DNA of 64,000 bases from a virus: IMG/VR virus record IMGVR_UViG_3300031857_012457, positions 62,001 to 126,000 of that record. The stretch is one strand, 5' to 3'. Shown here piece by piece: positions 9,951 through 64,000 of this stretch. Below the pieces are notes generated by a model. The model was not told where the DNA came from, ran no database searches, and was given only the letters and a program-made list of their open reading frames with translations. The translations under genes and the position numbers were made by a program. Numbering within the stretch: the stretch's first letter is position 1; every line of letters begins with the position of its first letter.

Positions 9951-11216
9951 TTATCCTAAATGAACCAAATTATTGTAACTGGTTCCTTCATCAATTCGAA
10001 CGGGAAACCCACCCTTTTCCATAATGGTCGGTAAAAGTTTTAAAATCCCCTCCCTCTCCATCGGATGTGTATCTATGAGAAACGCATCATAGGTGTATAG
10101 AATCAATTTCGATTTCATCTCACTCATTTGGTTTAGGATATCACTCATCTTTTTATAATTCACTTCCGTTTCTAGAGCTTGTAAGAGATAATTAAATACC
10201 TTTTGTTCAGTCCCTCCTTCTATTTTAGTGAAATGAATTTCCCTTCCGTATAGGGGTGTTTTCAGAACTCCGGAGATTACGAACTTTTGGTAAACCTCTT
10301 TGATGTATTTATCAACGGTTTGAAAAAACGGTATCTCCCTTGCGAACGAATCCAACCCCCCATAGAGATACTTAAAGGTTAGAGCTTTGGCCGTTTCGTA
10401 ATCCGTTCCATAAAGATTGGCAAGGTGTTGGTGAGCAGTTTCTCCTTTTGGAAATTCATACCCTACGATTTTCGCAATCAAACGGATGTGGTAAGACTCG
10501 TAATCGAATTGTAAGAGAGTACCCCCATCAAAACGGCTAACAAAACAATCTCTACTACCATCGGATTTGTTAAGAGCGGAGTAATTTACATTAAGGTGTC
10601 TATTGGATGGTCTACCTGTAGTTGTGTATGGATTGTATTTCGTATACACTTTACCATTATGTATGTGCTTGGGAGAGAAACTAAATCTATCAATAAATTT
10701 TTCCTCTTCGACTTGTACCCCAGCCCCCTCCAGCCTCCCTAACTCTTTTATGGAATCTGAATAAATACGATACCAACTCTTTCTGTTTTTTATATCAGGG
10801 ATTGATTTTAAGAGTTCGTACCACTTCATTAGCGGGATACAATCATTCAACTCATTATAATCGGACCTATACCCCTTAAAAAGAGTTTCTACCCATTCAG
10901 AGAAATTAAATGGTTTACCATATTCTTCGAAGTAGACCCATTCATAATCTAACCCTTCTGATTGAATGTATCGGTTTCCCAAAACCAATGTATTTTCATT
11001 ACAAAGTTTATGTATTGGAAAATTTGGTAAGGTTGAAGCATCAACATGATTGAAATTTATTATACCATCATCGGTTTCAGTTCTGTAATACAGAAACGAT
11101 AGATGCGTACCAAATTCATGTGCTTTGGGTGAACTCCACACTGGTATCAATAATCTAATGTTTGGATTAGATTGGACAAAAAAATGTAGGGTATCCCTAT
11201 TTTCTATTAAGTTCAT
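9951..11216 (-). CDS. Compact family A DNA polymerase-like protein
   Basis: 421 residues. The C-terminal 230 residues carry the polymerase I palm and fingers signatures in order: T-x-x-GRPSNRHLN at 199-209, motif A LLQFDYESYHIRL with Asp238, motif B AKALTFKYLYGG with Lys277, FNYLLQALETE at 341-351 (the N-x-x-x-Q motif), and motif C LYTYDAFLID with Asp377. Both catalytic aspartates are present, but the usual HDE of motif C is YDA. The first 150 residues may be a decayed 3'-5' exonuclease domain; its acidic residues are not evident. T4 itself uses a family B polymerase. A host-type promoter overlaps the gene start, and the sequence is visibly richer in G+C than its neighbours. Confidence 0.8.
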   Translation of the reverse strand: MNLIENRDTLHFFVQSNPNIRLLIPVWSSPKAHEFGTHLSFLYYRTETDDGIINFNHVDASTLPNFPIHKLCNENTLVLGNRYIQSEGLDYEWVYFEEYGKPFNFSEWVETLFKGYRSDYNELNDCIPLMKWYELLKSIPDIKNRKSWYRIYSDSIKELGRLEGAGVQVEEEKFIDRFSFSPKHIHNGKVYTKYNPYTTTGRPSNRHLNVNYSALNKSDGSRDCFVSRFDGGTLLQFDYESYHIRLIAKIVGYEFPKGETAHQHLANLYGTDYETAKALTFKYLYGGLDSFAREIPFFQTVDKYIKEVYQKFVISGVLKTPLYGREIHFTKIEGGTEQKVFNYLLQALETEVNYKKMSDILNQMSEMKSKLILYTYDAFLIDTHPMEREGILKLLPTIMEKGGFPVRIDEGTSYNNLVHLG

Positions 11217-51482: not shown

Positions 51483-51920
51483 TTATGCTTTCCATTTCAT
51501 TGCCTGCATTTTCTTACTCATGTCAGATGTTATTCCTCTTTCGGTAGCCTCATCATTCATTGCTTTGGTTGCAGTTCTTGTCAATTCCAATTCTAATTCT
51601 TGGTAATTAATATCTGGATCGTCTTTATATTGTTTTAATATCCGTTGTGTATATGAATCGTTAACAAATGCAGTTATCCAAGCTGGTCCAATTCCAGTAG
51701 TAGAAACAATATCATTCATTCTACTAATAAACCCTCTGTTACCATATAATTTTTTGTAAATATCTTTTAATGCTCTCTGTACTCCAACACTTCTACCATG
51801 ATAATATGCATCGACATTATCGGCTAATTTACTAAAGAACATAGTAATAAACCCAAAGAATGCAATAGTGCCAAGTATTGCCAATAATCCTAGTTCATTC
51901 AAAGGTTCTTTTTGTGACAT
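51483..51920 (-). CDS. Membrane-anchored protein of unknown function
   Basis: 145 residues with one N-terminal transmembrane helix (about residues 8-30, LGLLAILGTIAFFGFITMFF). The rest is a soluble helical domain with RALKDIYKKLYGNRGFISRM and ELELELTRTATKAMNDEATE. No recognisable family. Its position between protease and bS21 genes does not reveal a role. Confidence 0.65.
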   Translation of the reverse strand: MSQKEPLNELGLLAILGTIAFFGFITMFFSKLADNVDAYYHGRSVGVQRALKDIYKKLYGNRGFISRMNDIVSTTGIGPAWITAFVNDSYTQRILKQYKDDPDINYQELELELTRTATKAMNDEATERGITSDMSKKMQAMKWKA

Positions 51921-52843: not shown

Positions 52844-53434
52844 TTAATTTAATTCTATTATAATTTCTCTCATTAAATCTTGTGATTTACACCACTTACC
52901 ACATTCTTCTGCCATTTTAGCCCACTGCTTTGATTCATTCATTGGTGCCATAAATGCTCCATGTGTGGATGGATTAGAAACGAAATCCCAACCAACCAAT
53001 TCGAAATCTTCCTGAACCATTACGGTCCCATCTTTTAATTCCTTTACTGAACCTAATCCTCGTGATGAAATACCTAAACGGATATTATTTTTTAATAATT
53101 CTTTTAAGATATTACCAGATGGAGTTGAAAGAATTTCTACTACACCACATACATCATCACCTTCCCAATAAATTTCTCTAATGTTGTGGGATACATTTTT
53201 TAAGTTGATAACAGGAGAATCTGGATGGTCCAACTCACCTAGCGCTCTACGTTCTTTAATAAGTTGTTTGTATTTTGCACATTCTCTTTCTAAAATTTCT
53301 CTAGGATAGCGTCTACCATTTTGATTAGCAGCACCTGCTCTTTGTAAGATGCCCTTTACCAAATATGTTCCATTTTCTTCTTGTTGAAGTTTTGCTTCAA
53401 ACAAATGGGTTTCTATCAATAATCCTTTATTCAT
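52844..53434 (-). CDS. gp21: Prohead core protease (gp21)
   Basis: 196 residues, like T4 gp21 (212). Catalytic signatures are LGELDHPDSPVINLKNVSH with His70 and IRLGISSRGLGSVKEL with Ser123, plus VGWDFVSNPSTHGAF with Asp150. It matures the prohead by cutting scaffold and capsid proteins after (L/I)-x-E. Start chosen at the first Met, which fits the homologous N-terminus (GLLIETHLFEAKL). Confidence 0.92.
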   Translation of the reverse strand: MNKGLLIETHLFEAKLQQEENGTYLVKGILQRAGAANQNGRRYPREILERECAKYKQLIKERRALGELDHPDSPVINLKNVSHNIREIYWEGDDVCGVVEILSTPSGNILKELLKNNIRLGISSRGLGSVKELKDGTVMVQEDFELVGWDFVSNPSTHGAFMAPMNESKQWAKMAEECGKWCKSQDLMREIIIELN

Positions 53435-53435
53435 C

Positions 53436-53771
53436 TTACTTTATATCGTTTTTAACCTTTTCAATTGCTTTCTTACTATCGTTAGACCAAGCTTTCAAAA
53501 ATATATTTTTTAAACCACTTTCAATATCTTCTTTATCAACATTATCGTTATTTACTTTTTTAATAAGAGATTGAATATAATCAGATTTAACCATTTTATC
53601 TGCAGCTGCAGCGTTTACTCCGTTATTCTTTTCAATATATTCAGTAACATCACTTATAAATTTTTTATTTGATTGTAATTCATCTAATATTCCTGATATT
53701 TCTTTTTCAGTTTCTTTAGAACCACTAAAGTATTTAATTCCTTTTTCTATTAAACCCCCTATGTAATACAT
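53436..53771 (-). CDS. Membrane-linked protein, probable -1 frameshift extension of the upstream gene
   Basis: 111 residues from the ATG at 53771. The frame is open for 25 more codons to 53846 and codes a clean hydrophobic helix (NENIAIGILATLTGIIIGKI), but contains no ATG, GTG or TTG there. Starting at 53771 would cut this helix in half. The upstream gene ends on A-AAA-AAG-TAA, and a -1 slip continues into this frame. The soluble part has helices ETEKEISGILDELQSNKKFI and SLIKKVNNDNVDKEDIESGL. Function unknown. Confidence 0.65.
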   Translation of the reverse strand: MYYIGGLIEKGIKYFSGSKETEKEISGILDELQSNKKFISDVTEYIEKNNGVNAAAADKMVKSDYIQSLIKKVNNDNVDKEDIESGLKNIFLKAWSNDSKKAIEKVKNDIK

Positions 53772-53833
53772 TGCAATTTTACCAATAATGATACCAGTTA
53801 GTGTTGCCAGTATTCCAATAGCTATATTTTCAT

Positions 53834-54523
53834 TTACTTTTTTTTTTTAACCCCCTCGTTTGTTGATTCAGTTGTTATCTTATTTTTTTTGAAATATGCA
53901 ATTACATCTTTACCAGTATCAAATGCTTTTTGACCTCCCCAAGAAGAATGATACATCCAATATGAATTGCTTCCATCTTCCCAATCAAAATCACCCGAAG
54001 ATATTTCTCTACCATCATAGGTTAAATACCCAACACCTTGTTTAGAATAAAAACGATATTTACCATCTCTAAAATTAACATCTTCGTTTACTTTTGATTC
54101 GCTTTTGTTTATTTCTTTACCAGCTTTTACCGCATCTTTATGTGCATCAGAATTACCATGTGCAGGTTCTTCTCCTCTGGCTTTTTTAGCTCTTATGTTA
54201 GCCCACAACCCTGGATTTTCTTCTTCTACTTTTTTACCAGCTCTTAATGCTGCTAAATCGGAACCTTCAATTTCACCATCACCATCGGTATCAATTTTCT
54301 TTTGACCCGCAGTTAATTCAGCTTCATTATATCCTCTTAATCTTCCTTCAGATTTCGCTTTGTAAGCGGTATCTACTGCATTAAAAAATTTCTTCTTTTG
54401 TTCATCAGACATATCAGTAATTGATTTACCAACTTTATCCAACATATGTTTAAAAAGTTGTTGATAGTCTTGTTCCTCTCTAACAACATTTTTAATAAGT
54501 TCCAATAATTGTGATTTTTTCAT
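53834..54523 (-). CDS. EF-hand-like protein ending on a slippery sequence
   Basis: 229 residues. An EF-hand calcium loop is readable as DTDGDGEIEGSDLAAL at about residues 77-92. Around it are helical regions, NPGLWANIRAKKARGEEPAH, which recurs in other phage proteins, and a C-terminal domain with YLTYDGREISSGDFDWEDGS. The last codons are GTT AAA AAA AAA AAG TAA, an A11 run including the dnaX-type heptamer. Role unknown. Confidence 0.72.
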   Translation of the reverse strand: MKKSQLLELIKNVVREEQDYQQLFKHMLDKVGKSITDMSDEQKKKFFNAVDTAYKAKSEGRLRGYNEAELTAGQKKIDTDGDGEIEGSDLAALRAGKKVEEENPGLWANIRAKKARGEEPAHGNSDAHKDAVKAGKEINKSESKVNEDVNFRDGKYRFYSKQGVGYLTYDGREISSGDFDWEDGSNSYWMYHSSWGGQKAFDTGKDVIAYFKKNKITTESTNEGVKKKK

Positions 54524-54554
54524 TATTTGTACTTTTAGTATTACTTCTATAATG

Positions 54555-54563
54555 TATAAATAT
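54555..54563 (-). promoter_or_regulatory. Late-promoter-like motif
   Basis: Sense ACATATATTTATACATT, 32 bases before the ATG at 54523. Confidence 0.45.
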
Positions 54564-54570
54564 ATGTATT

Positions 54571-56244
54571 TTATTTATCCGTAGTAGATTTACCAAAAAC
54601 TCTTTGTATTTCCGGTCCTTTTGAAGAATCTACTTTTGATTTTATAATTTTAAGTGCATCTTTTTTTAATTCACTAGGATGAGAATTAAACCATTCTGAA
54701 ATATCTTCATTACTCTTTATTGCTCTTCTTCTTTGTCCACCATCATCGATATAATTTGTGTAAAAATCATACCATCTTAATACGGAATCCGCTAATTCTT
54801 TTCCAGTTTTGGCAGGTGTGTTTTGACTTGCTTCGTTTACTGATTCGTATTTAATCATATCTGGATTAAACTTTTCAAAATTCTTTCTTGCCCATTTTAC
54901 GGCAGCTTCATAAGAATTGAATTTAATCCTATCCTGTTTGAACCCCTTTGCCTTATTTAAGAAATCAATATAAACTTTTTCTTCGTTTATAGATTCTTGA
55001 ATTTTATTTCTTTTCATCCATTCTTCTAAATTACGAATTGCTGAATCAAATACTCTACTTCTATCATGGTCCATTCCAAAGTTTTTGAAGTATTCTTTCA
55101 TCATCTGATACGGTGAATCTAATTGCTCACCGTTTCTTTTCATATCTTTGATATTCATAGCAACTTGATAAGCTGCCATCTTACCACCAAAGAAAATAGC
55201 TTCGGATGTAATATCATTCCAAAATCTATCCACCAATGAAGATAATGGTTTTCCTTTTGAGCGATACCCAAATTTTTCGTTACCTAATGATTCTACAAAG
55301 TAAATCAATCTTTCTGCGTTGGTTACTTTATCTAAAAACTTTTCCTTTACCATTCCTTGAAGAACTTTTTCACCCTGTGATGAAATTGGAATTTTGTTGA
55401 TTCCTAATTCTTTCATTTTAGAATCAACATCACGAGGCATCATAAATTCGTTTATTGATTTACCTTCACTAATTACTTTATTACTTGGAAATGATACTGA
55501 TGGTTGGTTTCCAAATGTTTTATCAACTTTAGCATTGATTCCAAATTGTGATTTTAACATTTTTACAACACCACTGCCAAACTTTATATCAGTAAGTTTA
55601 AGATAAATGTAATTTCTATTAGGTGCATTCTTAATTTCACCACTTACAAACTTTGAACCTATTAATTTAATAATATCATCTACTACATCTGCTGCAAGGT
55701 ATCCTTTAAGTTCGGATTCTTTTACTACGGAATATCCAGTTAAATCGGCTTGCCTCTTTCCCTTTTTCTCTTCACTATCTTTACCACTAAATGCGAATGG
55801 AGTATTGTATCCTTCAACACCACCAGTAGTATTCATCTCATCTACTTTTAATTCGGCATCTTTGTACATATCACTAACTTTGTCATTCAATTCTGCTGCC
55901 AATTTTTTCTTTTGTGCAGTTAGTGTTTTTAGTTGTTGTATGTGTTGTTTTTCGGCAGGAGTACCTTTGGATTTTTTATATGCTTCTAAACTCTTTTCCA
56001 TAGAATCTAAAACTTTTGCATAATCCGTTTGAATGGCCTTAACAGAACGTAATTCAGCCAACACCATTTCTTTTATTTTATCAGGCAATCCTTTGTGAGA
56101 TGTTGATGCAAAATCTTTAGCATCTTTATCACTCATTGAATCTGCTGCTTTTTCAACTTCTGGGGATGGGTTTTCCATATCGCCCTTTTGAGCGGCGTGT
56201 ACCATACCCATAAATTTTTGTTGTGCTTTAGATACTGCTGGCAT
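54571..56244 (-). CDS. Large protein with an N-terminal DUF3008-like domain
   Basis: 557 residues. The first 60 (PAVSKAQQKFMGMVHAAQKG, KDFASTSHKGLPDKI) match the DUF3008 family, normally a stand-alone protein of about 60 residues, here fused to a long extension. The rest contains a helical segment, AADVVDDIIKLIGSKFVSGE, and later FVESLGNEKFGYRSKGKPLS and EAAVKWARKNFEKFNPD. No enzyme motif was recognised. Its place between portal and protease suggests a head-internal protein, perhaps ejected with DNA, but that is a guess. Confidence 0.65.
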   Translation of the reverse strand: MPAVSKAQQKFMGMVHAAQKGDMENPSPEVEKAADSMSDKDAKDFASTSHKGLPDKIKEMVLAELRSVKAIQTDYAKVLDSMEKSLEAYKKSKGTPAEKQHIQQLKTLTAQKKKLAAELNDKVSDMYKDAELKVDEMNTTGGVEGYNTPFAFSGKDSEEKKGKRQADLTGYSVVKESELKGYLAADVVDDIIKLIGSKFVSGEIKNAPNRNYIYLKLTDIKFGSGVVKMLKSQFGINAKVDKTFGNQPSVSFPSNKVISEGKSINEFMMPRDVDSKMKELGINKIPISSQGEKVLQGMVKEKFLDKVTNAERLIYFVESLGNEKFGYRSKGKPLSSLVDRFWNDITSEAIFFGGKMAAYQVAMNIKDMKRNGEQLDSPYQMMKEYFKNFGMDHDRSRVFDSAIRNLEEWMKRNKIQESINEEKVYIDFLNKAKGFKQDRIKFNSYEAAVKWARKNFEKFNPDMIKYESVNEASQNTPAKTGKELADSVLRWYDFYTNYIDDGGQRRRAIKSNEDISEWFNSHPSELKKDALKIIKSKVDSSKGPEIQRVFGKSTTDK

Positions 56245-57403: not shown

Positions 57404-59146
57404 TTACTTTTTGGTTAAATCTTCTGTCAAAATAGTTTTTTTATTACCATCCATATCCTTAAAAACTTCAAAATATGAACTCTTTCTCGGTTTGTATGGA
57501 ACAGAACCTTCTTTTGCTTTAAGAGTTTTTATTCCTAATGGGTCTCTACCTTCAGGATGGTCATCATGCCCATATCTAACAGGGTCTTTTGGTCTACCAA
57601 CCTGTCCATCTAATTCAAGTTTTAACTTATTCAACTCCTCTTCAACATTAGTTGGTCCACCTTCAGTTCCAGTTTCTTTTGCTGGGTCTACACCTTGTGT
57701 TTCAATTGAAGTTAAACGGAACATTTGTTTAGTATCATCTAATACCTGCAATGTTAATTCATCCTGCTCATCTTTTGCCATCTTCATTACGGATTCATAC
57801 ATCCATTCTTTGGAGAACATCTTTGTTTGTTGCATTTGTTGAATTAGGGCTACTTTTGAAGTGTATAGTTCAACCTGCTCCTGCTCATAAATTCTAGATG
57901 GAACTGTTAATTCCAATGTAAAGTCTGTTAAACGGTCATCGTTAATACCTTGTGCGTATAAATGAACGATTGCAATTTTAGTTAATTCGGAAATCAATAC
58001 TCTCTGAACTCTTTCAATTGTTTTGGCAAAACGAATATCCATTGATGCCAATGTTGCTTTACCATTAGTATCTTCCTCATAACCCAAATATGCTTTTGGA
58101 ATTTTAAGTGCAGCCATCAACTTCCCTTTTAAGTAATTGATGTCATCAATCATATTGTACTCTAAACCTTTTAGGGTATCAATTGAAGTTCCATTATCAC
58201 TACCTCGAACTGGCATATAATAATCTTCAATAAGATTCATCATATTGTACTTTAAGTTGTACTCACCCGTTCTTTCATCAACAAATGGAACTTTCTTTGA
58301 TGCGTTGATGATTTTTTGCATGTAGTTATCCACTTCGTTTGGTGGGATATTACCAACATCCACTTTAAAAATTCTCTTTTCAGGAGCTCTCATTACTCTG
58401 TGGATTAACATTGCATCTTCCATCAACATTAATTGTTTCCAAACTCTTCTAGCTCCTTCAACCATAGATTTTCCATAAGGTAAGAAGTTTGAATCTGAAT
58501 TTAAACGGAAGTGAGCAATCTCATAGTTTTCAAATTCCTTTTTAGTAGTTTGACCTACTGCCATATATGGGTTTTGATATGGGGCATATACGAATTTAAC
58601 TCTTTGTGGATTTTCAGGATCAAATCCCTCTACTCTACTCATTTCGTATGATGATAATGGCATTACGTTTATAATTCCCAATTCATCTGCAATTTCTAAT
58701 TCTAAAAAGAAATCACCATATTTTACCAAGTTTCGTGTCCAAGGCCATAAGTTGAACTCAATGTTAAGAATATCGTAAAATAAGTTTTCTAATATTTGTT
58801 TGATGTTATCATCATCGTGATGAATTTTTAAAATACTACCATGTTCGTTTTTAGCGGTACATTCATCTGCATATACATCCAATGCGGATGATAAAATGGG
58901 GTCCATATCCATTGAATCGTAATCTCTAAACAAATCGATACGAACTTGTTGGTATGCCATTGCAGATTCCACCCCACCTACACCGTAGTTACTTACTTTG
59001 AGTTTCATATAACGGTCTACAAGGTTAGTTGTCATATTCTGATACTCATCAGTATCGACTATTTTAACTCCTTTTTCCGTTTTTCTTACTATGGTATTTG
59101 TTGAAAATAATTTCTGTAACCTACCGAATAATGTTTTATCTGCCAT
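57404..59146 (-). CDS. gp20: Portal vertex protein (gp20)
   Basis: 580 residues, near T4 gp20 (524). Typical segments are VDRYMKLKVSNYGVGGVESA, SALDVYADECTAKNEHG, LPYGKSMVEGARRVWKQLML then MEDAMLIHRVMRAPEKRIFK, and AALKIPKAYLGYEEDTNGKA, all characteristic of T4-type portals. It forms the dodecameric channel through which gp17 pumps DNA. The C-terminal 100 residues (DPAKETGTEGGPTN, DPVRYGHDDHPEGRDP) look disordered. Confidence 0.95.
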   Translation of the reverse strand: MADKTLFGRLQKLFSTNTIVRKTEKGVKIVDTDEYQNMTTNLVDRYMKLKVSNYGVGGVESAMAYQQVRIDLFRDYDSMDMDPILSSALDVYADECTAKNEHGSILKIHHDDDNIKQILENLFYDILNIEFNLWPWTRNLVKYGDFFLELEIADELGIINVMPLSSYEMSRVEGFDPENPQRVKFVYAPYQNPYMAVGQTTKKEFENYEIAHFRLNSDSNFLPYGKSMVEGARRVWKQLMLMEDAMLIHRVMRAPEKRIFKVDVGNIPPNEVDNYMQKIINASKKVPFVDERTGEYNLKYNMMNLIEDYYMPVRGSDNGTSIDTLKGLEYNMIDDINYLKGKLMAALKIPKAYLGYEEDTNGKATLASMDIRFAKTIERVQRVLISELTKIAIVHLYAQGINDDRLTDFTLELTVPSRIYEQEQVELYTSKVALIQQMQQTKMFSKEWMYESVMKMAKDEQDELTLQVLDDTKQMFRLTSIETQGVDPAKETGTEGGPTNVEEELNKLKLELDGQVGRPKDPVRYGHDDHPEGRDPLGIKTLKAKEGSVPYKPRKSSYFEVFKDMDGNKKTILTEDLTKK

Positions 59147-61350: not shown

Positions 61351-62001
61351 TTATTTTTTCAATTTAATCTTCCAATATGTTCCAAATCCAACATAAGGAG
61401 AGAATGCGCCAGTTGTTCCATCAGTGGTTCTATTGTTAACACCAATGTTTAAGTTGTAAATTTTATCTTTTTTAGTTTTAAGAATTAAACCAGCTCCAAC
61501 TGCTGATACATAATCTTCTTTATTAAATCCCCCATTCAAACCGAAATATACTTGATTTTTTGCGGGTTCTTTAACAATGAGTTCTTCTCTTATAGTTCTT
61601 TCTCTAACTTTAGCATCAAATGTTCTACCTAAAATTCTGTTTTGAGATATAGTATCAGTTACCGATACGGTTCCCAATGAATCAGGTAATACTAATACAT
61701 CTTTGTATAAAACTTTAGAATAGTAATTTTTTAACAATGCTGCCGTATCTATTACCGCAGGAATTTTTACTTCTTTTTCAACAATTATTTCATGATAGAT
61801 GTCATCTCCTTTTTTGGTTACTACTTTGGTTTTGATTACATCAACGGTATCAATTGTATGTTTAATTACTTCGTATTTTTTACCGTCTATTTTAATAATC
61901 CTACCACCTGGCATTACTCCACCTGGGTTAAACCATTGTAATAATACATAGATAATTAGTACTGCTATTGCAATGTTTTTAAATGTTACAAATTTTTTCA
62001 T
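61351..62001 (-). CDS. Membrane-anchored envelope protein, spanin-like candidate
   Basis: 216 residues. One N-terminal transmembrane helix at about 9-24 (NIAIAVLIIYVLLQWF), then a charged region with DTVDVIKTKVVTKKGDD and VKIPAVIDTAALLKNYYSKV, likely periplasmic, and a C-terminal beta segment NQVYFGLNGGFNKEDYVSAV, KIYNLNIGVNNRT, FSPYVGFGTYWKIKLKK, reminiscent of outer-membrane strand patterns. Such a bridge between membranes would suit lysis, but no spanin signature was verified. It lies one base upstream of the terminase gene. Confidence 0.65.
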   Translation of the reverse strand: MKKFVTFKNIAIAVLIIYVLLQWFNPGGVMPGGRIIKIDGKKYEVIKHTIDTVDVIKTKVVTKKGDDIYHEIIVEKEVKIPAVIDTAALLKNYYSKVLYKDVLVLPDSLGTVSVTDTISQNRILGRTFDAKVRERTIREELIVKEPAKNQVYFGLNGGFNKEDYVSAVGAGLILKTKKDKIYNLNIGVNNRTTDGTTGAFSPYVGFGTYWKIKLKK

Positions 62002-62718: not shown

Positions 62719-64000
62719 TTATTCGTAAAATATACCTAATATCTGATTTAGTGGTGCAAATGTGCCTGTAAGTTTGTATGTATTACCCTTATACACAAAC
62801 ACTATACCTTCATTAGGAACTATCTTACCCTTACCACCAATACTAGCTAATCTACTTAATTCCATTTTTAATTTAGCTATTTTAGATACATCACCACTAC
62901 CTCTTACTTTTTCCGCAGTAGATTCCAATCTGTTTTTCATATCGGCAACTGCTGCATTTGGATTTGCAGTTAAAACTGAACTCATAAACGAAAGAACATC
63001 GGCACCAACTCCCAAAAATATCTCTTCAAATTGTCTAACATTTTCTTTTTGTTGCTTTACTACATTTACTTTATCATTATCCATTGCCCACTTTTGAGCT
63101 TCCTTATCTACAATTGCATTTAAACGGAATGATTTATCACCAAACGCCCATCTCTTTATTAATGCATCTCTTTCAAATTTCTCTAATTTAACTTTTGATT
63201 TATCTATAAAATTAGACCACCATGCTTGATGATATTCGGAAACACCATCGTTGTTAGATAATTGAAATTCAGATTGTAATTTTTGTAATTTACTTAAATA
63301 CTTACCTTGCTTTGAACTCAAATTTTCATTTTTAGGAAGTTGTGTAACAGGAGGTCCTTGTATAGTATATTTAGATTGAACATCCGCATTCACTTGCTTA
63401 ATCATCCCTGCCAATTTAGTTGCTGCAGATTGGTCAGCAGAAACTGCTTTACCACTTTCATCATAACAAGTTGTGTTATGAAATACCAATAAAGCCTGTC
63501 CGTAAGGAATAACATTTACAGAAGTTGGCCATATTACTTCCAAATTCATAAAACAATGTCCTTCATTAAATATTTTCTTTCGTTGTGGTTCCGAAAGAGA
63601 TTGGATTGCCGCTGATAAATCTTTCATTGCAAAATTATATGCATCGGTTAATCCACCTCTACCACTAAATTTAGATGCAACATCTTCAATTCCCATTGCG
63701 TTTGCTCCACCATTTGCCAAATGTCCTTTGTTTCTTGCTGCAATCAATCTACCATTCTTCCAGCTAATTGCTAATGCCTGTCCATCGGTTTTTTCTCTTG
63801 TCAATTCTAACTCACCAGTCAATGCTCCTGTGATTATATTTTTTAAATCACCAAAAGTTAAATCCATATCATCAAATGGGTGAGACATGTGACCGTATGC
63901 ACCACCTTCAGTTAAAATCGTTTCATTTGTCTTTTTTTTTAAGTTTCTTTTTTGAAGAACTAATTTATTTAATTCTGAAAATAAATCAGCAATATCTTTA
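62719..64000 (-). CDS. Ligase-like nucleotidyltransferase candidate (5' end outside the window)
   Basis: At least 427 codons: the frame is open beyond the Met at 63888 to the window edge, and the upstream part reads NETILTEGGAYGHMSHPFDD, so that Met is internal. Counting from it, motif order matches polynucleotide ligases: motif I EKTDGQ with Lys33, arginine R52 in AARNKG, Glu117 in NLEVIWP (motif III), Glu360-Gly in NEGIVFVYKG (motif IV) and Lys372 in YKLTG (motif V). RNA or DNA ligase, or another enzyme of that fold, is inferred; no family name is certain. Confidence 0.7.
   Translation of the reverse strand, partial: KDIADLFSELNKLVLQKRNLKKKTNETILTEGGAYGHMSHPFDDMDLTFGDLKNIITGALTGELELTREKTDGQALAISWKNGRLIAARNKGHLANGGANAMGIEDVASKFSGRGGLTDAYNFAMKDLSAAIQSLSEPQRKKIFNEGHCFMNLEVIWPTSVNVIPYGQALLVFHNTTCYDESGKAVSADQSAATKLAGMIKQVNADVQSKYTIQGPPVTQLPKNENLSSKQGKYLSKLQKLQSEFQLSNNDGVSEYHQAWWSNFIDKSKVKLEKFERDALIKRWAFGDKSFRLNAIVDKEAQKWAMDNDKVNVVKQQKENVRQFEEIFLGVGADVLSFMSSVLTANPNAAVADMKNRLESTAEKVRGSGDVSKIAKLKMELSRLASIGGKGKIVPNEGIVFVYKGNTYKLTGTFAPLNQILGIFYE

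Follow-up and report, generated by a model that had tools for sequence, protein, structure and literature searches.

A conserved A-run junction in the head gene cluster of T4-like phages that probably adds a membrane module by -1 recoding

The frameshift site of Escherichia coli dnaX is composed of the slippery heptamer A_AAA_AAG, a downstream stem-loop and an upstream Shine-Dalgarno-like stimulator, and the shifted frame gives a shorter product. Other sites, among them that of Thermus thermophilus dnaX, are based on transcriptional slippage at runs of at least nine A or T. According to passages in PMC5009743, bacterial RNA polymerase slips in vivo at runs of nine or more, and the usual spacer at frameshift sites is 5-9 nt. 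Frameshifted capsid and tail proteins of phages, as well as the logic of Gag-Pol fusions, are already known (parts of PMC5009743, PMC3711429 and PMC10885494). Among titles and abstract openings of the open-licence PMC literature, we found no description of recoding in a prohead core gene.

Here we describe a junction at which, judging from sequence comparison, -1 recoding at a run of 9 to 12 adenines probably adds a membrane module to a share of the protein encoded at the prohead-core position, with the ribosome as the likeliest agent.

The junction and its place in the head gene cluster

The window analyzed (64,000 nt, positions 62,001 to 126,000) is part of the 201,940-base IMG/VR virus record IMGVR_UViG_3300031857_012457 and carries a T4-like head cluster on the minus strand, in the order portal, other genes, 229-aa ORF, -1 module, prohead protease and further genes. 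The features referred to below are as follows.

57404-59146, minus strand: portal protein (gp20-like; PHROG 213, E 4.8e-66), upstream in the head cluster
53834-54523, minus strand: zero-frame ORF of 229 aa, with leader MKKSQLLE, an EF-hand-like motif, a C-terminal domain shared with L029, L036 and L045, and the end VKKKK-stop
53838-53848, minus strand: A11 run, read directly from the sequence
53837-53843, minus strand: in-phase slippery heptamer A_AAA_AAG, read directly
53834-53836, minus strand: zero-frame stop TAA directly 3' of the heptamer, read directly
53830-53832, minus strand: TGA closing the +1 frame just past the slip site (+1 stops lie near the site in relatives too)
53436-53837, minus strand: -1-frame ORF of 133 codons plus stop, with a VNE motif, a TM helix and a helical domain of about 105 aa
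53829-53837, minus strand: V-N-E, which fits [VIL]-x-E and is a putative cleavage site of the prohead protease, immediately ahead of the TM helix
53757-53825, minus strand: predicted transmembrane helix, -1-frame residues 5-27 (Kyte-Doolittle and AlphaFold)
53775-53828, minus strand: place matching the downstream stem-loop of relatives, unfolded in the window's own copy
52844-53434, minus strand: prohead protease (gp21-like; PHROG 207, E 1.3e-53), the next gene downstream of the module
51483-51920, minus strand: ORF starting at an ATG of its own (MSQKEPLNELGLLAILG...), possibly a distant paralogue of the TM module (module HMM, 35 bits)

Direct reading revealed that the 229-aa ORF ends GTT AAA AAA AAA AAG TAA and that A_AAA_AAG (53843 to 53837) follows the X_XXY_YYZ pattern in the correct phase, both as proposed in the initial annotation. 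In the -1 frame the run continues as KKK-VNENIAIGILATLTGIIIGKIAMYY... up to a stop at 53438-53436 (read as KKK VNENIAIGILATLTGIIIGKIAMYYIGG..., the 133 codons being counted from VNEN), and the in-frame stop preceding this frame is a TAA whose T lies just ahead of the run and whose A's open it. Two further points of the annotation held on re-examination: the -1 frame is free of start codons up to the ATG at 53771 (codon 26 counting KKK), and a start there would remove most of the predicted TM helix. The helix itself is supported as a prediction, with a Kyte-Doolittle 19-residue maximum of 2.10 in the window and of 1.98-2.39 over 71 modules; the AlphaFold model of the module consists of a helix (residues 3-27) and a helical domain (mean pLDDT 80.6, with low confidence in residues 1-13). 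Two other routes past the zero-frame stop were rejected, namely stop-codon readthrough (the window's zero frame meets the next stop four codons on) and reinitiation at TAAATG (wrong frame).

The junction run is the longest A run of the window. A9 words are rarer there than in dinucleotide shuffles (7 observed, shuffled mean 15.25), and three of the seven lie inside the junction A11; at the other four A9 runs (7564, 40141, 47347 and 63940), no comparable frame-change junction was seen when the translations were judged by eye. An A9 run at 63932-63940 (minus strand) lies in an open frame reading ...LKKKTNETILTEGG..., another KKK-xNE junction, here in frame.

Since homopolymers are error-prone in principle, a sequencing or assembly error had been offered as an explanation of the run. 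The same A11 length was found, however, in four further IMG/VR contigs (L001, L002, L009 and L060), which are identical to the window for 214-4672 bases on the upstream side and for 4015 bases on the downstream side (with one mismatch beyond, in a longer fetch) and represent the same population, not independent lineages. Moreover, the same phase is kept in 71 of 75 junctions, including the variants A10GG, A11G, C-A11 and A12G. An error can thus be given practically no weight.

The 229-aa ORF and the module lie between the portal and prohead protease genes, a position occupied in T4 by gp67/gp68; no match to the gp67, gp68 or IP families was obtained. The ORF starts with MKKSQLLE, an N-terminal leader of the L/I-x-E type, and the LL(x)E pattern is shared by the protease (MNKGLLIE) and two other head genes. 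Among the 57 ORFs of the window the pattern occurs in six: four of the head cluster, one at 9951-11216 and one that is an artefact of an internal ATG. These leaders resemble the gp21 site L/I-X-E and the T4 leaders as given in a part of PMC9026906. The -1 module has no LL(x)E-type leader of its own. A [VIL]xE motif is present within the first six residues past the slip in all 71 modules (V in 67, I in 3, L in 1), and is looser than the L/I of T4.

The initial annotation had described the 229-aa protein as EF-hand-like; the motif DxDGDGEIEGSDL is indeed present, but no Pfam EF-hand model reached its cut-off (highest score 14.3 bits, cut-off 30). The sole match of this ORF was phrog_22379, of unknown function. 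No PHROG match within 0.001 was found for the 111-aa ORF of the -1 frame, and 14 modules gave single-member matches only (best E 0.00079, unknown function). In named phages, tblastn revealed no match for the window module, the L039 module or the 229-aa ORF; the nearest named relatives by portal are Microcystis phage Mel-JY01 (50%) and Flavobacterium phage immuto (47%), whose genes between portal and protease, compared by annotation only, are all designated 'hypothetical protein'. A search of bacterial and archaeal genomes with one pattern matched 490 stretches, of which none was confirmed, and the PDB contained no significant match (best E 0.19 by sequence and 0.43 by fold). In BFVD there was one match under 0.001, A0A6J5M8K1 (204 aa, 40% identity to the module model). 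This protein of an uncultured Caudovirales phage has some 70 residues beyond the match and could be an own-start or a fused form.

The possible paralogue at 51483-51920 is a small membrane-type protein with an LNE motif directly before a hydrophobic helix; it is graded as possible because a whole-record search with the same alignment did not recover it at E 0.01. The head-core ORFs (53834-56244 on the minus strand, and those of L008, L029, L036 and L045) look like shuffled modules with S[VIKT]NE linkers, a motif found among the 57 window ORFs only in 53834-54523 (once) and 54571-56244 (three times).

Conservation of the junction and selection on its two frames

Loci were gathered from IMG/VR phage contigs by scans for the 229-aa ORF (best 80 of 209 relatives) and for the module; the pattern scans for the module give counts of at least the numbers found, and the family is larger than the sample. 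One scan pattern (KKKVNENI) lay on the junction itself, the others inside the module. Among the matches listed, the module HMM recognized 189 ORFs in 165 loci; we removed 24 matches scoring below 60 bits, which may be paralogues, and two that did not reach the module start, and kept 163. These loci include repeat fetches of the same contigs and correspond to 75 distinct junctions. For their classification we used where the zero-frame stop lies and whether the upstream ORF is open; an A run was not required.

In 71 of the 75 distinct junctions (among the matches listed) the geometry is kept: an A9-A12 run, an immediate zero-frame stop, the module in the -1 frame and no upstream start. Comparison of run length and frame in related genomes, which had been proposed as a check, therefore gave the run and the -1 arrangement almost throughout. 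Near-identical junctions remain among the 71 (26 representatives at no more than 85% identity over 150 nt), and the counts accordingly overstate independence. Identity to the window's module is 36-48% for 12 of 13 modules picked for alignment, the remaining one, of the own-start type, having 85%.

The run is A9 in one junction, A10 in 41, A11 in 28 and A12 in one. The final 7 nt ahead of the stop are AAAAAAG in 55, AAAAAGG in eight, AAAAAAA in seven and AAAGAAT in one, and in the junctions other than the 55 the listed codons contain A_AAA_AAA or A_AAA_AAG in phase. The zero-frame stop is TAA in 35 and TAG in 36. In the +1 frame a stop follows after one codon (69 junctions) or two codons (two junctions), partly because the V-N-E codons force such stops. 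Phase variation was rejected, a single phase being kept in 71 of the 75 junctions.

In one of the 75 junctions (L118, IMGVR_UViG_3300008113_002210) the module and A11 run are like those of L119, and shortly ahead of the run the upstream ORF is broken, by a real deletion or an assembly fault. In other loci (L005-L007, L010, L018, L021, L033, L037, L041-L043, L046, L058, L059, L071, L073, L077 and L078) the module is missing and the EF-hand ORF is directly followed by the protease start (TAATG); a module search of the records behind L006, L010, L033, L071 and L073 (209 kb), which may be fragments, gave no match.

The purity of the run was evident from third bases. At the K/E/Q codons -2 to -4 of the 71 junctions A occupies the third position in 212 of 213 cases, with L110, whose run ends one codon earlier, as the sole exception; codon -4 varies among K, Q and E. 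Control A:G ratios at K/E/Q codons were 1732:345 within the module and 1347:341 at codons further upstream. Of the other columns, five contain 60 or more K/E/Q; each of these has 3 to 16 G and none is fully pure, although near purity of a single column could arise by chance. In the last codon before the stop the third base is G in 55 and A in seven, as suits A_AAA_AAG and equally the GTA codon for Val in the -1 frame.

The -1 frame is coding from its first codons on. Within codons 1-25, dN/dS in this frame is 0.36 for the VNEN type (45 junctions) and 0.27 for the VVxE type (25 junctions), with no stops (70 of the 71 junctions, L110 left out; pairs up to 30% different), and the other two frames contain stops. 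Differences are distributed over the three codon positions as 41/14/46% in the VNEN type and 33/13/55% in the VVxE type; the third-position bias of the VNEN type is modest and weaker than further along, and was counted against the frameshift reading. The family thus has a conserved -1 ORF without its own start and under coding selection from the slip onward.

These data also bear on whether the module might be a separate gene, expressed from an internal start (the ATG at 53771 or a non-standard codon) or by reinitiation after the zero-frame stop. Consistent with this, an ATG is present at 53771, the possible paralogue has its own ATG, and so does the module of some relatives (3 of 75 distinct junctions and 17 of 163 loci, among the matches listed). 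Nevertheless, we consider a separate gene very improbable: purifying selection in the -1 frame spans codons ahead of most ATGs, the ATG within TAAATGA opens just a short zero-frame peptide in the window, and use of 53771 entails the loss of helix noted above. In all 71 junctions the stretch from the preceding -1-frame stop to the slip is free of ATG, GTG and TTG, and the first start past the slip is found anywhere from codon 5 to codon 62, which makes a conserved internal start a poor explanation.

Relatives with a normal ATG, which according to the initial annotation would speak against a frameshift, do exist (the L004, L027 and L028 types, the closest relatives of the window's module), but a run followed by a stop is missing from their junction, and they have an additional leader that is absent from the window, reading M-I-K-L-K-S-[LI]-L-I-E-V-M-K-K-K-S-V-N-E-N; their downstream structure is weak (z -1.25 to -1.40). 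They appear to represent an alternative way to express the module and not a refutation of the slip. Their LIE leader suggests that the module needs a leader and that the frameshift would normally supply it.

In an ML protein tree of 68 modules the window groups with L004 (support 100/99) within a clade of otherwise own-start members. L004 is 91% identical to the 229-aa ORF over residues 1-154 and then diverges, and the A11-G-TAA-ATGA element and -1 phase are common to the window, L062 and L065, of which the latter two are also stem-weak. The simplest reading is that an upstream swap replaced the ORF end and own start with a slippery A11-type end as in L062 and L065. It is conceivable, although unlikely, that the window's fusion is a recent recombination product whose module is not or barely expressed, the frameshift being real in the family. 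Such a history would agree with the nesting of the window module among own-start relatives, with its lack of a stem and with seven nonsynonymous to three synonymous changes on its branch (three and seven on the L004 branch, three ambiguous), yet 7:3 against 3:7 is a small sample. Furthermore, the ORF is intact over 133 codons, the junction element and phase match those of L062 and L065, and total dN/dS between the window and L004 modules is 0.225, the L004 branch included (0.06 for the protease gene). We regard the branch counts as a weak sign of relaxed constraint on the window copy, which may be less efficient, differently tuned or relaxed.

Downstream RNA structure and the agent of slippage

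Folding downstream of the run was better than in synonymous-codon controls (z < -2) in 39 of 62 distinct sequences. The effect is strong in the VNEN type (mean z -4.04, 34 of 40 below -2) and weak in the VVxE type (mean z -1.64, 5 of 22), both by synonymous-codon randomization; in VNEN stretches further along the mean z is -2.27, -1.30, 0.11 and 0.44, so that the signal fades with no sharp end. For the 26 representatives, home-made shuffles of a 60-nt stretch beginning about 6 nt 3' of the heptamer gave a mean z of -3.06 (18 below -2), and control stretches gave -0.52 further downstream and -0.81 upstream (3 of 26 below -2). Dinucleotide shuffles placed 14 of 20 sequences chosen from the 71 below -2 (L106, -5.99; L110, -5.77; L075, -4.69). 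No stem was detected in the window's own copy (z 0.39, -0.75 and 0.03 in three estimates).

A spacer of 8 nt (pairing begins 9 nt beyond the last base ahead of the stop) was found in 26 of 40 sequences with an MFE under -14. Structure 5-9 nt past the heptamer is present in many relatives and absent from the window copy. Lack of this optional stimulator in the window lowers the expected efficiency or favours the polymerase.

For a covariation test, a named 23-pair stem was derived from the L106 fold and compared with shuffled and slid controls. The stem forms in 75.5% of cells (72.2% shuffled, 34-51% slid), and 52 cells are altered on both stem sides (34.8 in shuffles, 16-31 in slid controls). 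Three of five measures exceeded the controls, whereas the two least swayed by relatedness did not exceed the shuffles (double-change pairs, 9 versus 8.9; pair types, 30 versus 29.1). RNAalifold found no common structure in 40 VNEN-type sequences, in which the pairing registers of single folds differ, and a weak structure in 22 VVxE-type sequences. An upstream Shine-Dalgarno-like element is not conserved (6 of 71), the window's best match being at most GAGG.

The observed stems with a normal spacer favour a ribosomal slip, while the purity of the run beyond need and the closed +1 frames favour polymerase slippage or both. In programmed transcriptional realignment, RNA polymerase would add an A on the A9-A12 run and part of the mRNAs would encode the fusion by ordinary translation. 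All 71 runs reach the length of nine, they are purer (212:1) than the 7 nt required by a ribosome, and the +1 frame is shut within one or two codons in all 71, if partly forced by the V-N-E codons. This mechanism is also the best fit for the stem-less window, and longer runs accompany weaker stems (run length versus MFE, Spearman 0.51, n = 62, kinship uncorrected). On the other hand, the stem of the relatives lies downstream of the run, is untranscribed when polymerase slips and cannot act on it, and is typical of ribosomal sites; there is no comparable upstream hairpin (the upstream control stretches given above), and L110, the single A9 member, folds with the lowest energy among the 62 (-23 kcal/mol). 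We thus regard realignment as a serious but rather improbable alternative. For the family, ribosomal frameshifting is more likely than polymerase slippage; for the window, the two are close.

Proposed function and comparison with known systems

In the mechanism that we favour, the ribosome would slip back by one base at A_AAA_AAG or A_AAA_AAA, next to the stop codon, assisted in many relatives by a stem-loop about 8 nt downstream. In the window this would yield, in a fraction of copies, a fusion of about 362 aa, composed of the 229-aa zero-frame product and the 133-aa membrane-spanning module. The zero-frame leader, with its L-L-E motif resembling T4 capsid-targeting and protease sites, may deliver the leaderless module to the prohead core by means of the fusion, and the prohead protease could free the module by cutting [VIL]xE at the junction.

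Parts of PMC9958956 describe T4 proheads as beginning on the inner membrane and being released after maturation cleavages. This motivates, without showing it, a tentative and somewhat doubtful extension, in which recoding would determine what share of the prohead-core subunits has a membrane anchor, these anchors would tether the growing prohead to the inner membrane and a protease cut at [VIL]xE would release the mature head, in a manner like Gag-Pol. Alternatively, the module may be carried in the head and ejected.

If the proposed recoding is true, uncultivated T4-like phages have a conserved recoding site in the scaffold/core region, where gene callers that require a start codon would call two genes and begin the second inside the TM helix. 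With its naturally graded A-run lengths and stem strengths, the family would be suited to studying the trade-off between ribosomal and transcriptional slippage, and it would give access to the attachment of T4-like proheads to the membrane and their release from it.

Among the described systems, E. coli dnaX has the same in-phase A_AAA_AAG and a stem-loop like the short-spacer one present here in many relatives. The junction differs from it in the longer run (9-12), the lack of a conserved Shine-Dalgarno-like element, the adjacent zero-frame stop, the stem-less window copy and a shifted frame that encodes the longer product. With T. thermophilus dnaX and other transcriptional-slippage sites it has in common a pure, conserved run of at least nine and the potential for two products per gene; in contrast to them, many relatives possess a downstream stem-loop, which is of no use to polymerase slippage.

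T4 gp67/gp68 and the capsid-targeted internal proteins share with the 229-aa protein the portal-protease position and a short N-terminal leader with an L-x-E-like site, but not a sequence family, and neither the EF-hand-like motif nor the frameshifted TM module has a T4 counterpart known to us. Retroviral and totiviral Gag-Pol offer a parallel in logic, since a cargo joined by recoding to a component of the core or capsid is packaged at a set ratio and can be freed by a protease; the genes are unrelated, the virus here is a DNA phage, and the cargo is a TM module with putative packaging and cleavage. Finally, the frameshifts of T7/T3 gene 10, of the Lactobacillus A2 and Listeria PSA/A118 capsid proteins and of the tail chaperones G/GT likewise extend a fraction of a structural protein at its C terminus, whereas here the protein is encoded at the prohead-core position and the extension is a predicted membrane-spanning module.
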